A stretch of DNA of 10,313 bases. It comes from a bacterium (lineage in GTDB: Bacteria; UBP15; UBA6099; JAJRTR01). The notes under the pieces were generated by a model. The model saw only the letters and a program-made list of their open reading frames with translations. It did not search any database and had not been told where the DNA came from. Numbering within the stretch: the stretch's first letter is position 1; the number at the start of each line of letters is the position of its first letter. Shown in pieces: positions 3,024 through 10,096 of this stretch. A program made the translations under genes and the position numbers. The stretch spans positions 1-10,313 of the forward strand of contig JAJRTR010000044.1 in the NCBI GenBank assembly GCA_024278215.1, read 5' to 3'.

Positions 3024-4253
3024 CTATCCCTGCTGATCCTTTCTCTTCGACAGTTCCAGCGCGGTCTTGAGTCCCTTTTCAAATATAATTTTTATTACGA
3101 GGCCGAGCTTGTTCATTTTAAAGAAACGCTCACCGTAGCGGCGTAGTTTGCGAGTGCTGATCTCGATGCCGAGTCCGGGCGTTGTGGGTGGCTGCAACTG
3201 TCCGTCACTGTCGGGAATAATAGGTTGTTTGAGGATTCCGTCACGGTATTTTGGTATCCACGACGGTTCTTCCAGCGGGTACTCGAGGGGAAGCGTGTTC
3301 AGCGGCGAAGCGAGATGCAACTGCATGTTAATAAGAAGACCGATGCCGTTTGTCCAGGTGTGGGGTGAGTACTCGAGCCCCTTTTCGTGAGCCGCGTTCA
3401 TAGTTCTGAGAGCATCCGAAACACCGCAGAAAGTCGCATCCGGCTGGTAGACATCGAAACTGCCCTTTTCCATCATCACCTTTATTTCGTGCCATCCGTA
3501 GTTGAGCTCGGCGCCGGCGATTTTCAGTTTTGCTTTTTCGCGAAGTGACGCGAGTCCGTCGTAGTCGTGCCAGTCGAGAGGCTCCTCGAGCCACACAAAA
3601 CCGCTGTCTGCCGCCGCGGCTGCGAATTCCGTCGCGCGTTCCAAATCCCACGCGGGTATTTTATCTATTATGTTCACAAGCCAGCCCTGGTTGGCGTCGA
3701 CACCCATAGCAAGCTTCCCTTTCACACCCTCACCAACAACCTGTACATGTCTTATGTCGTCTTCAAGCGCAATATTTTTTACACGCAGTTTGGCGGTTTT
3801 ATATCCGCGCTCGGCGATGGCCAGCAGTTCGTCCACACGTTGCACGGGGTCGTGCATCTCGCCTGTCGAGCAATAGACTTCGATTGGTCGCGCCGTGCCT
3901 CCCAGCAATTCGTAAACAGGCTTTCCCTTGCTCTTTCCGACGATGTCCCATATAGCTGCTTCGATCCAGTAATTGCGCCAGCCGAGAAAACTCGCGGCCT
4001 TGAGCCGTTGCCGGACAGTGTCGATATCCTCCGGGTCGAGTCCCATGAGATAGCCGCCTATCAAGTCGCCAAGCCCCTCGCGTTCTCTGCCCATCGCCGC
4101 GCCGGCGGACCATCCTGAGATGCCGCATTTCGTTGTAAGTTTTATAAGTGTGAATGAGTTGTGCGTCTGCGGATAGCCGGGGATCCATGTGGGCCGGAAT
4201 ATTTCCTTTAGTGGTATATGTACATGAAAGAGTTCGATTTTCGCTATTTCCAT
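3024..4253 (-). CDS. Enolase superfamily enzyme, mandelate racemase/muconate lactonizing type (sugar-acid dehydratase or racemase)
   Basis: 409 residues from the ATG at 4253. The frame stays open to 4358, but GGAGG at 4260-4264 is six bases before 4253 and three before a tandem ATG at 4256, so the extra 34 upstream codons, which overlap the preceding gene's 3' end, are not used. The capping domain occupies about 1-120. Barrel landmarks: KLR (K155, R157) at the strand-2 position of the usual K-x-K; DAN with metal ligand D186; LEEPL with E223; GAEL with E249; QPDATFCG with D272; and SPHTW with general base H298 paired to D272. This His-Asp dyad defines the mandelate racemase subgroup, whose members abstract the proton alpha to a carboxylate using Mg2+, mostly as sugar-acid dehydratases. 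R157 in place of the second Lys may alter specificity; I cannot assign the substrate. Helical C-terminal tail about 370-409. It lies 49 bases after the GH38-like gene on the same strand, so they are probably cotranscribed. Confidence 0.9.
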   Translation of the reverse strand: MEIAKIELFHVHIPLKEIFRPTWIPGYPQTHNSFTLIKLTTKCGISGWSAGAAMGREREGLGDLIGGYLMGLDPEDIDTVRQRLKAASFLGWRNYWIEAAIWDIVGKSKGKPVYELLGGTARPIEVYCSTGEMHDPVQRVDELLAIAERGYKTAKLRVKNIALEDDIRHVQVVGEGVKGKLAMGVDANQGWLVNIIDKIPAWDLERATEFAAAAADSGFVWLEEPLDWHDYDGLASLREKAKLKIAGAELNYGWHEIKVMMEKGSFDVYQPDATFCGVSDALRTMNAAHEKGLEYSPHTWTNGIGLLINMQLHLASPLNTLPLEYPLEEPSWIPKYRDGILKQPIIPDSDGQLQPPTTPGLGIEISTRKLRRYGERFFKMNKLGLVIKIIFEKGLKTALELSKRKDQQG

Positions 4254-4259
4254 CATGAA

Positions 4260-4302: not shown

Positions 4303-6642
4303 TCATTTGACGCCCGCCTCATTTTTCTCCACTGAAGGAATAAACTCGATCCTGTCATCTTCTGTTGTGAGTATGAGCGTTTTGCGCTCGAACGGCTTCA
4401 GTGAAATCGCGAACCTTCTATCTCCGTTCTTTTCGCTTACCGGTTCTTTACCGATTGTCGCCTCGTCGACACCGGCAATATTCCTGAGTGGAATAAAGAA
4501 TTCCAAATCGGCAGTCGCCGTCATGTCCGAGTAATTGAAAATCTTCACGGCGATCCTTCCTTCCGGTTCAGTCATTTTACCATATTCTTTACCATTAGAT
4601 CCGAGGGGTTTCAATCCATACATTATTGTACTTCGACCGTCGATGCTGATAAAAGACACAGAGCCCGGCAGACTTCCGCTATGAAGCCCCTCCGAAACTG
4701 CAATAAGCGGAAAGTTGTATTCGTAGCCTTCACGGATCAGTCCCGCATCCCGCCAGTCTCCGGCGTGTGGAACAACGGCATACCTGTATTTGTCGCCGCG
4801 GCTGTCGTCCTCAGTTTCTTCAGACAACTCATCCGAAGCGTGCAGGAAAGGAATCTTCATTCTATCGTCGGCATCGACACTTACATACGTGCCTCCAGCG
4901 CCCAGCAGTGCGAACCCGTATTCCGGTGCGGTTGCGATGAAACCGGATGCGTTGACTCTGATCGGCAACACGATGTTCCCGGACTTTTTCAATTGTTCCA
5001 CGACGACGTCAATCTTTTTTCGCAATGAGGCGCTGTCTGCCGCTTCGAGCACGAGTACATGTGGCGACTTGTTGCCTGATGCGGCGATGATCGAACCCGC
5101 GGACTTCGCGAACATCGTTCCAACACCGTTAGCAGCGATTCCCGACTTGATGATATTCCTTTCAGCATAAGTGAAATATTCTTCGATATTATTAGTGAAT
5201 TCGTTGTTGCCGCCAACACCGAGCGAAATACTGAAACCATCGTATTCGCCGCCTGCGGCATTATCTGCCCGGACTTTCGTCGTCTCGACTCCACGCACGG
5301 AAAGCGCCGCCGCAAGTTCGTCCGCCATTCTTTCGACGTCTTTGTCCGCTGGAACAATGATCTCGCAAATATTCATCGGATAGCTACCGACAACATTTCC
5401 GCGGTCGTCAATAAAGTCGACGGACTGCCCCGGCCCGTAATCGACCCAGTTATTTGTCAGCGCGGTTAAGCGTTTTTCGGACAAAAGCACACCATTTGTG
5501 ATCGTCAGGGGGAACATCGCCATTAAACGGATATCCGCCCCATCGAACGCATTGATATATGTTGTAAAATCTATGCGCCGTATTTCCGGACTCCTGTAGA
5601 TAGTCGTTTCCCTGACAATTTCAGGAAATATTTTTTTCTTCAGCTTTTTTTCGACATTTCTCCCGCTGCCGTTTCGGCCTGTTGTTTCATAGACAGGATT
5701 CGACACGACAACAATACGGTCAAACACCGCGCCATGTATCAGAGAAATGTTTTTCGGCACCGAATCATTCAAGTACCATATAGTTCTTTCTTCTTTCTTC
5801 TTTTCATTATTGTCACTTCGGGTTTCATGTGCGGCTGCTTTATTGACTATCGCCACGACGTCGTTTCCGACCCCGATGTCGTCGCGCATAAATTCTTTAT
5901 TCAGCTTTTTTCCGTAAATGCTTCCCAGTCCGCCGCACTCGCCCGGCTCGGACTCTATCCTGTACAGATCGTTTTCGATCCATGTACCCTTCAGCCGGGC
6001 AGGTCGGTAATCCACTGGGAATTTCTGCGACGGCACCGGGTAGAAGACGCTGTAGCCTGTCGCAGGCACATCACCGGCAATCATATACACTCGCGCTGAT
6101 GTGAAGGGGATGTCGACGTTGTTAGTCGTAAGCTGAAAAGCGACTCGGGCACCGGTGCGGTCGACAATATAAAACGCATCGACCGGCACATCGAACTCAA
6201 CATCCGCTTCCACGACATCCGTTCGTTTCCAGCTTAAGGAATTAAAAATGATAATCGGTCTCCCGGATTCGCCCGGCGCGTATTTCGACGTGTCGATCAC
6301 AGATGAAATGTCGCGCAGCGCTTCATCCCTCACGGTAGTTGCGGATTTCAACGCCGCTCGTCGGTTCGCTATGTTATCCGGTTTTGCTTTCCCGGATTTC
6401 CCTGCGGCTGTCGTAATATGCTCTGATTCCTCATTTATAAAAGCGCTTATGCGGTCGAGTTCATCCCATGGATAAGTCGCGCCCGTTATACTATTTACAG
6501 TCGAAAATAGCTCCGCCTCGGCGAGCCGGTTCGCGGCAAACCGCGTCACGCTATCCATAGACACTGCAACCCGGGCACACAAGCAGGCGTAAAGTATAAA
6601 GAATATGCAATATGGGAATAAGACTTTTCTCATGATATTCAT
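4303..6642 (-). CDS. Secreted GH38 alpha-mannosidase-like protein lacking the catalytic barrel
   Basis: 779 residues. Residues 4-28 (MRKVLFPYCIFFILYACLC and onward) form a signal peptide; LYAC at 17-20 could be a poor lipobox. Residues about 30-118 resemble the GH38 helical domain (ATYPWDELDRI). FNSLSWKRTD (133-142) matches the strongly conserved GH38 linker block. YRIESEPGECGGLGSIYGKK (227-246) and RRIDFTTYINAFDG (355-368) are typical beta-sandwich blocks. YAVVPHAGDW (621-630) and a closing domain ending ISLKPFERKTLIL match the family's C-terminus. Normal GH38 enzymes carry an N-terminal barrel of roughly 250-400 residues with the nucleophile Asp and three zinc ligands; here the signal peptide stands in its place. 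The usual HHD motif carrying the fourth zinc ligand appears as NEESEHIT (70-77), so hydrolysis is unlikely. Residues about 425-560 form an alpha/beta insert. Possible roles: sugar binding, partner of another enzyme, or a relic. It lies 68 bases after pth. Confidence 0.72.
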   Translation of the reverse strand: MNIMRKVLFPYCIFFILYACLCARVAVSMDSVTRFAANRLAEAELFSTVNSITGATYPWDELDRISAFINEESEHITTAAGKSGKAKPDNIANRRAALKSATTVRDEALRDISSVIDTSKYAPGESGRPIIIFNSLSWKRTDVVEADVEFDVPVDAFYIVDRTGARVAFQLTTNNVDIPFTSARVYMIAGDVPATGYSVFYPVPSQKFPVDYRPARLKGTWIENDLYRIESEPGECGGLGSIYGKKLNKEFMRDDIGVGNDVVAIVNKAAAHETRSDNNEKKKEERTIWYLNDSVPKNISLIHGAVFDRIVVVSNPVYETTGRNGSGRNVEKKLKKKIFPEIVRETTIYRSPEIRRIDFTTYINAFDGADIRLMAMFPLTITNGVLLSEKRLTALTNNWVDYGPGQSVDFIDDRGNVVGSYPMNICEIIVPADKDVERMADELAAALSVRGVETTKVRADNAAGGEYDGFSISLGVGGNNEFTNNIEEYFTYAERNIIKSGIAANGVGTMFAKSAGSIIAASGNKSPHVLVLEAADSASLRKKIDVVVEQLKKSGNIVLPIRVNASGFIATAPEYGFALLGAGGTYVSVDADDRMKIPFLHASDELSEETEDDSRGDKYRYAVVPHAGDWRDAGLIREGYEYNFPLIAVSEGLHSGSLPGSVSFISIDGRSTIMYGLKPLGSNGKEYGKMTEPEGRIAVKIFNYSDMTATADLEFFIPLRNIAGVDEATIGKEPVSEKNGDRRFAISLKPFERKTLILTTEDDRIEFIPSVEKNEAGVK

Positions 6643-6710
6643 AAGCCTGTTAATTGTAACTTAAAACCGCCTTGAAACTAAGATGAAGCTAAAGATATGG
6701 AAAGCCCCGG

Positions 6711-7310
6711 TTACTCTATTAAAAGTCCGGTCGATGAATTGAATCGGCCCATTGCAACATCGAAACCGTCAGCCACGACAGCTTCCAGGGCGTCGGCGGC
6801 ACTGTCCATAAATTCCGGCAGCAGTTTTTTTTCGTCGGGCATAAAAGAACGAAGCACGAAATCCTCGAGCGGCATGCCCTGCGGCTGCGGCCCGATGCCG
6901 AGGCGGATACGTGGAATGTCCTTTGTCTGGAGCACATCAATAATATTCTTCATGCCCTTGTGTCCTCCGGCGCTGCCTGTTTTGCGGATGCGGATGCGTC
7001 CGAAGTCGATTGCAGCGTCATCATACAGCACAATCATCCGGTGTGGCATAGCGCCTATATTCAGACCCGTTTTCACGAGCGCCTGCCCGCTTAGATTCAT
7101 GTACATCAACGGTTTTATTATTGTGATGCCGCCGGCACCGCACCGGTAGTCTTCGCGAATAAATGAAGTTGTCTTTTTCCTGAGATGAGGTCGGCCGAGC
7201 CGCTTTGCAAACGAGTCGACCGCCATAAATCCGATATTGTGTCGGGTGCGCGAATACTTCAGGCCCGGATTCCCCAGCCCCACAATAACTTCTATTCCGC
7301 TTTCTTCCAT
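6711..7310 (-). CDS. pth: Peptidyl-tRNA hydrolase
   Basis: 199 residues from the ATG at 7310, the usual Pth length; GGAG about eight bases upstream supports this start over the ATG at 7376, which would add 22 residues. The enzyme releases peptides from tRNAs that drop off stalled ribosomes and is essential in most bacteria. Visible signatures: VGLGNPG with N14, RHNIGF with catalytic H24, KPLMYMNLSG (66-75) with N72, YDD with D97, and SAGGHKGMKNII with H117. The loop usually reads GGHNG; here a Lys (K118) replaces the Asn, and I am unsure how common that is. RIRLGIGPQPQGMPLEDFVL completes the family signature. It is the first gene of the minus-strand series leading into the GH38-like and enolase-superfamily genes, and it is divergent from the phosphoesterase gene across 163 bases. 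Confidence 0.96.
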   Translation of the reverse strand: MEESGIEVIVGLGNPGLKYSRTRHNIGFMAVDSFAKRLGRPHLRKKTTSFIREDYRCGAGGITIIKPLMYMNLSGQALVKTGLNIGAMPHRMIVLYDDAAIDFGRIRIRKTGSAGGHKGMKNIIDVLQTKDIPRIRLGIGPQPQGMPLEDFVLRSFMPDEKKLLPEFMDSAADALEAVVADGFDVAMGRFNSSTGLLIE

Positions 7311-9150: not shown

Positions 9151-9648
9151 CTATCGCTGTTCAGGATATTCATCGCCATCGGTCTCAATCTCGTAACCGA
9201 TAGGATTCCTGATGTCGCCGTGGTCGTGGCCCATCACCCTGTGTGTGATGGGATCAAGATGATATGGCGCTCCTGTTATGGGACATCTGGGTATCCCTTT
9301 GGGAAAATAGTCTTTGTCTCTTCCTATGTCGCTAAGGTCGTCTCTCGGCCACTGGGCATTGTTCTGGATGTACCAGAGTTCGACTAATGTGTTTATAACC
9401 TGTTGATTGTGGCGGCAGGCAGTTTTTTTCGTGAAGTCGATTATTTTATCAACATCGAAATTATCAGGTTCCTGACGTTGGTCCTTTTCGTTGTAATCCA
9501 CTTCCTGCGGGACGGCAGTCATTGCCTGGGTGGCTGTTCCCCCGTCCAGAGATATGTAAGGCAGGAATGCCACATTGAACAGCATAAGACCGAGCACGGT
9601 GAACAGTATGCTCCACAACATCCAGTATCGGTTAGGTTTTAAAGGCAT
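9151..9648 (-). CDS. Pilin-like protein with membrane anchor, paralogue of the upstream prepilin-like gene
   Basis: 165 residues from ATG 9648, with no strong ribosome site. One membrane helix at about 9-32 anchors the protein; there is no glycine-glutamate prepilin cleavage motif. A hydrophilic linker (about 35-75) leads to a domain clearly related to that of the next gene upstream: C78, a helix with INTLVELWYI, W100-P101, DLSDI (104-108), YF (114-115), PRCPITG with C122, and THRVMGH (135-141). C78 and C122 are 44 residues apart, exactly as in the paralogue, so a disulfide is plausible. Such domains with CP(V/I)TG and a Trp-Pro block follow type IV pilin helices in pseudopilin-like proteins. 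The gene begins 22 bases after its partner ends and is surely cotranscribed with it. It may be a minor pilin-like or assembly component with altered membrane insertion; this is inference. Confidence 0.75.
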   Translation of the reverse strand: MPLKPNRYWMLWSILFTVLGLMLFNVAFLPYISLDGGTATQAMTAVPQEVDYNEKDQRQEPDNFDVDKIIDFTKKTACRHNQQVINTLVELWYIQNNAQWPRDDLSDIGRDKDYFPKGIPRCPITGAPYHLDPITHRVMGHDHGDIRNPIGYEIETDGDEYPEQR

Positions 9649-9670
9649 AAGCTTCGCCGCATAAAATTCT

Positions 9671-10030
9671 TTACGGATGCGGTGTCACACCTCTCTTGTG
9701 TCCCGAAACCCTGTGTCCGGTGGGATATATAAAATATGTCGCAGCAGGAGTCACCGGACAGTCGGGCAGTTTCTGTTCAACAAAATAGTTGACATTCGCC
9801 GCTATATCCGACAGGTCAACCATGGGCCATGTGCCTTCTTTTATGTAGTAGAGCTGGACAAGGGCGTTTATATTCGCAACATTCGCCAGGCATGCTTCCC
9901 ATTTGGCGTCTTCCGACACATCAAAAAATCGCGGCACCATAATTATCGACAGGATTGATATCAGCAATGCGATAAGGATTATCTCCCCCAGCGCTATCCC
10001 TTTTTCGTTTTTATTTAAACCTATCTTCAC
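9671..10030 (-). CDS. Prepilin-like (pseudopilin) protein with type IV leader
   Basis: 119 residues from the GTG at 10030. The frame is open upstream to a TTG at 10096, but that TTG lies in the -35 element of a good promoter and the longer leader would be unusual. From GTG the protein starts MKIGLNKNEKG, then IALGEIILIALLISILSII: a short basic leader, cleavage after Gly11, Glu at mature position 5 and a long hydrophobic helix, the hallmarks of a type IV prepilin processed by prepilin peptidase. AGGG lies upstream at fair spacing. The globular part has C47, INALVQLYYI, W68-P69, DLSDI (72-76), YF (82-83), PDCPVT with C91, and GHRVSGH (105-111). It is short for a major pilin, so more like a pseudopilin or secretion-system component. 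No assembly ATPase, platform protein or peptidase gene is in the window. Confidence 0.8.
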   Translation of the reverse strand: MKIGLNKNEKGIALGEIILIALLISILSIIMVPRFFDVSEDAKWEACLANVANINALVQLYYIKEGTWPMVDLSDIAANVNYFVEQKLPDCPVTPAATYFIYPTGHRVSGHKRGVTPHP

Positions 10031-10067
10031 AATTTGCCCTGTGTACAAAGATATAATGTTGTTATCT

Positions 10068-10096
10068 ATTATAGCAATTTCTTTATCTGATAGCAA
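10068..10096 (-). promoter_or_regulatory. Sigma-70-type promoter of the pilin-like operon
   Basis: On the minus strand: TTGCTA (10096-10091, 4 of 6 matches to TTGACA), a 17-base spacer, and a perfect TATAAT (10073-10068). Transcription should start near 10061, giving a leader of about 30 bases before the GTG at 10030. It rules out the TTG at 10096 as start. Confidence 0.65.

Follow-up and report, generated by a model that had tools for sequence, protein, structure and literature searches.

An apparently exported GH38 homologue without a catalytic barrel in a bacterium of the UBP15 lineage

The stretch of DNA analysed here, referred to as the window, is the complete contig JAJRTR010000044.1 with a length of 10,313 nucleotides. 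It contains an open reading frame of 779 codons that starts with ATG and has no internal stop codon, as the initial annotation had described (Table 1). The frame of the pth gene ends at position 6711, only 68 bases (6643-6710) from the start codon, so that, in agreement with that annotation, a catalytic domain cannot be encoded upstream. The codon usage of the reading frame is frame-specific, with about 0.2 bits per codon in frame and negative values in the other two frames. This signal is lowest, and weak, in the first tenth of the gene. The nearby genes, namely pth, an enolase-superfamily gene and a GMC oxidoreductase gene, give no clue to the function, and no synteny of pth, the GH38-like gene and the enolase-superfamily gene was found in the relatives.

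The enolase-superfamily (MR_MLE) gene at 3024-4259 on the reverse strand is far better conserved than its neighbours, with 66-76 % identity across the phylum and presence in 7/7 genomes. Two adjoining small ORFs at 9151-10096, also on the reverse strand, each have an N-terminal hydrophobic segment, are alike in their C-terminal halves and look pilin-like, without a Pfam match. At the contig end, positions 64-579 of the forward strand encode the C-terminal 154 residues of the Transposase_29 profile (PF21804, E 4e-37), and the contig break therefore probably lies at a mobile element.

Table 1. Features of the GH38-like gene in the window; residue numbers refer to its protein product
Feature	Position in the window	Strand	Basis
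ORF for the barrel-less GH38-like protein, 779 codons	4303-6642	-	homologous along its length to residues about 291-1059 of L044/L064
Putative signal peptide, residues 1-28	6559-6642	-	MNIMRK, hydrophobic core and putative cleavage between AVS and M; hydropathy 2.37 for residues 7-21; pLDDT <50 at residues 1-24
Three-helix bundle, residues 29-114	6301-6558	-	AF2 helices 15-52, 59-70 and 86-114; alignment to PF09261 regions of relatives
NEESEHIT, residues 70-77, at the place of the zinc-binding HHD loop	6412-6435	-	alignment; model pLDDT <50 at 73-86
Beta-1 and first part of the beta-2 super-sandwich, residues 115-395	5458-6300	-	alignment, AF2, structure match
FNSLSW, residues 133-138	6229-6246	-	within the region of residues 115-395
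Inserted alpha/beta domain, residues 396-575	4918-5457	-	common to full-length relatives of the subfamily; modelled alone at pTM 0.81
Remainder of beta-2 and beta-3 C-terminal domains, residues 576-779	4306-4917	-	alignment, AF2, structure match
YAVVPHAGDW, residues 621-630	4753-4782	-	within the region of residues 576-779

The protein begins with MNIMRK followed by VLFPYCIFFILYACL, which has the highest mean hydropathy of any 15-residue segment of the whole protein. Judged by hydropathy, the basic MRK before this core and the plausible cleavage site after it resemble a signal peptide, and the segment directly adjoins the helical bundle, as had been noted from the sequence. A lipobox-like ILYAC at residues 16-20 is an alternative. 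If M29 were the true start, there would be no export. This is argued against by the hydrophobic segment with its basic start, which lies in frame upstream of M29. The GH38-like protein is apparently exported.

The sequence blocks FNSLSW and YAVVPHAGDW, by which the initial annotation had recognised the accessory and C-terminal parts of GH38, are in place, and homology to a full-length GH38 protein of the same order (L044, described below) is secure with an E-value of 8e-105. Profile searches gave much weaker signals. GH38N (PF01074) is absent in the Pfam search, where the sole match was GH38C2 below the threshold (E 0.19), and NCBIfam gave a weak match to mannosylglycerate hydrolase at residues 48-175 (E 2.7e-4). 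The AlphaFold2 model, based on 35 homologues, has a mean pLDDT of 79.8 and a pTM of 0.84. Its confidence is low in two places, residues 1-24 and the former HHD loop (73-86, pLDDT <50). In a Foldseek search with this model, the top 39 rows were all GH38. VIA-align superimposed it on the Enterococcus faecalis GH38 3lvt with a Z-score of 24.3 over 495 residues (rmsd 3.2 Å). Golgi mannosidase II (1hty) was matched at residues 415-1044 only, which is everything past the barrel, and Ams1 (7vqo) at 555-1079, from just past the barrel to the end. The comparison suggested with the initial annotation thus yielded a confident model that fits GH38 structures from just past the barrel to the C-terminus.

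The predicted structure contains the non-catalytic part of the GH38 fold. Like SpGH38 (2wyh), the E. faecalis enzyme (3lvt/5kbp), 1hty and Ams1 (6lz1), it has the three-helix bundle followed by the beta-1, beta-2 and beta-3 domains in the same order, and it aligns to these proteins over nearly its whole length. In contrast to them, it has no barrel, its HHD loop is replaced and it carries an additional alpha/beta insertion. In its fold, this inserted domain comes closest to the N-terminal domains of GH115 (Z 10.5), GH67 (9.7) and GH84 (8.5), and it also resembles a BcsB domain and an S-layer anchoring domain; these Z values are moderate and speak to the fold, not to the function. The N-terminal accessory domains of GH67, GH84, GH115 and GH20 have a similar fold and stand before the catalytic barrel, whereas the domain of the GH38-like protein lies inside the beta-2 region. 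The same insertion is present in L064-L069 and L074.

In SpGH38, the zinc ligands His13, Asp15 and Asp125 come from the barrel and His351 comes from a loop of the helical bundle, while Asp125 acts as the nucleophile and Asp232 as the acid/base (PMC2815779). Since the protein starts at the helical bundle and has no alpha/beta barrel, it has none of the three barrel ligands among the four, and neither the nucleophile nor the acid/base. The active site has also been lost in the part that remains. NEESEHIT occupies the exact alignment position of YGQHHDGL in the relatives, which agrees with the initial annotation and refines it, as H75 aligns to the zinc-ligand histidine column of HHD. The adjacent histidine and aspartate and the preceding WRQ are gone. 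By this alignment, H75 may survive as a single zinc-ligand residue. Two further loops, W..TTG and the one that follows the ERF motif, have likewise been lost or shortened. Of the 75 columns that are unchanged in seven relatives, 8 of the 9 in residues 65-80 have been lost compared with 22 of 66 elsewhere (Fisher p 0.002). An orphan barrel was not found in the genome, whose 3 GH38N domains each lie inside their own frame of 911-1078 AA and belong to full-length proteins. The absence of the N-terminal catalytic domain pointed out earlier is confirmed for the gene. Of the features of an active GH38 alpha-mannosidase, neither the barrel with HxD, Asp nucleophile and Asp acid/base nor the fourth ligand from an HHD or FHD loop was found. 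The product is a GH38 homologue by its fold and not a GH38 enzyme by the features tested. It is a pseudoenzyme-like variant of this known family, as it has a homologous fold from which the catalytic residues are gone.

The phylum is represented by only 7 genomes in the genome collection, none of them from the genus or family of the window. A GTDB scan with the single protein found no close relative, and a further GTDB scan was queried with an alignment (A2). The nearest homologue found (G005:C42, L044/L064; MAG RA.bin91, JAKLIR010000136.1) belongs to another family of the same order. Its 1435 AA begin with a segment resembling a signal peptide and include GH38N at 38-274 as well as the middle and C-terminal domains. 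It shares with the GH38-like protein about 33 % identity in the common region, the inserted domain and the type of N-terminus, but differs by an intact barrel (HCDPVW, DVFGH, HHD) and about 375 more C-terminal residues. The genome from which it stems is unusually rich in GH38-like loci, with 18 matches to the protein from the window and at least 10 matches to GH38N.

The search for homologues with the same start, covering 80 GTDB loci and 116 hits in 241 genomes, revealed no second clean barrel-less member. In this set, the relatives with enough flanking sequence all have a barrel, in some cases a divergent or degenerate one. A helical start without a nearby GH38N was seen in 8 of the 116 hits. 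Besides the window itself, these were five hits located at the end of a contig and two whose upstream region is divergent. Several candidates were rejected, namely G145, which has a divergent upstream region and is a pseudo-GH38, G200, whose divergent upstream region keeps HTDYFW, and four loci with short upstream sequences (L085, L113, L114 and L132) because of contig edges, frame breaks or a partial barrel. Among the matches listed for the order of G145, of which 68 genomes were scanned, there was no clear barrel-less case. As no other clean member was found, the deletion looks unique to the lineage of the window, judging from the available sequences. The initial annotation had named full-length relatives with a lone deletion in this copy as evidence against its reading. 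All relatives with intact sequence are indeed full length and the window holds the sole clean deletion found, which amounts to half of that objection.

Loss of the zinc site is more widespread than loss of the barrel. The zinc motifs were checked across the subfamily, defined as GH38 proteins with the inserted GH67/84/115-like alpha/beta domain. In the order of G149, L179 and L191 (from G149 and G245) have lost all zinc motifs, whereas their orthologues L187-L189 keep them. The order of G145 contains a clade of pseudo-GH38 proteins (L174, L193-L206, L213-L216 and L218) in which every member examined has lost HxD and HHD; some members keep Asp at the nucleophile column, and in the most divergent ones (L213-L216) the motif alignment is uncertain and no canonical motif is visible. 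These conserved full-length proteins have about 1550-1716 AA, are often 31-46 % identical to L174 and are found throughout the order, in several of its families. Active-looking GH38 proteins (L207-L212, L217) coexist in this order. L190 was rejected as a dead member, since it keeps its zinc ligands, and was left out of the dead set in the second tree. The tree requires three separate losses of the zinc site, in the window, in L179/L191 and in the G145-order clade, and the starred branches force all three; within the G145-order clade, long branches may have been drawn together, but the protein from the window stays apart from that clade regardless. The pseudo-GH38 proteins of both orders belong to the same subfamily as the protein from the window and have also lost the zinc site, but they keep a degenerate barrel and their losses arose separately. 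Loss of the zinc site with retention of the fold is thus recurrent in the insert-bearing GH38 subfamily.

The distribution of the deletion raises the question of whether the gene is a decaying relic. According to this explanation, the barrel was lost fairly recently, the gene is decaying, and the frame is still open by luck or due to weak residual constraint. The sole clean barrel-less copy in the search described above, the loss of several conserved loops and the long branch of the window, with 1.57 changes per column versus 0.70 for its sister, would fit this. However, the excess on this branch, 0.87 amino-acid changes per codon, should have introduced about 29 stop codons under neutrality and 0 are observed, which makes simple neutral decay unlikely. 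This argument is not a direct measure of selection and is compatible with partly relaxed constraint, which the roughly twofold branch length would fit as well. The losses are moreover gathered at the former active site, where a protein without a barrel no longer needs conservation, and this is a second argument against decay, as are the confident predicted fold and the frame-specific codon usage. The doubts about simple decay expressed in the initial annotation were therefore well founded, and a lone relic of the deletion is considered rather doubtful.

An assembly artefact, in which the barrel went missing from the MAG through a misjoin or a collapsed deletion, is very improbable. The window is one entire 10.3 kb contig of an assembly of 207 contigs, which would allow such an error. 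Yet a misassembly would leave the HHD loop and the other active-site elements downstream of the junction unreplaced, the junction is in frame just past the signal-peptide-like segment, and the detached barrel is absent elsewhere in the assembly. It is even less to be expected that the protein is still an enzyme, with a barrel supplied in trans or a new active site on the beta domains. GH38 proteins can form dimers or tetramers with inter-subunit contacts (PMC2815779, PMC7609781), and the possible persistence of H75 at the zinc-ligand column could be read in the same direction. Against this stand the genome, which has no stand-alone GH38N, and the erosion of the HHD loop and of the pocket loops in what is left of the protein.

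The favoured reading, with a probability of roughly 0.6, is that the gene product is secreted and descends from a secreted GH38 glycosidase whose catalytic activity it has lost, the remainder having been kept folded for a non-hydrolytic role. Its ancestor would have been laid out like the sister L044/L064, with a signal peptide, the barrel, the helical bundle and the beta domains including the inserted alpha/beta domain. About 265-300 codons would then have been deleted in frame, fusing the signal peptide to the helical bundle. The active-site elements outside the barrel (the HHD loop, the W..TTG loop and the one following ERF) would have eroded afterwards, without the other domains losing their fold or their reading frame. 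We infer that the product is exported and retained by selection as a non-hydrolytic binder or scaffold. Going by the parent family, this role would most plausibly concern glycans, with the beta super-sandwich and the inserted domain as the parts involved.

Compared with the initial annotation, which had proposed a secreted sugar-binding pseudoenzyme, the loss of the barrel, the export-like start and the arguments against decay stand, and the restriction of the clean deletion to the window among full-length relatives weighs against it. That two further lineages of the subfamily lost the zinc site independently provides support that the earlier interpretation did not have. As the barrel is gone and the active site was lost independently in two other lineages, the protein probably holds or binds something instead of cutting sugars and is perhaps a glycan binder. 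A broader and more tentative proposal, which we rate at somewhat less than even odds, is that the insert-bearing GH38 subfamily has turned at least three times into secreted non-catalytic proteins, once giving rise to a conserved pseudoenzyme family across an order. The protein from the window would then be the most extreme of these, with no barrel left and the remaining domains maintained by selection for glycan binding or surface anchoring.

Inactive relatives of glycosidases occur in other families. For GH38, no description of a pseudoenzyme was found in the open-access literature searched. If confirmed, these findings would call for the re-annotation of proteins described as 'alpha-mannosidase' in these bacteria, and the recurrent loss of the active site would point to a useful non-catalytic role of the GH38 scaffold.
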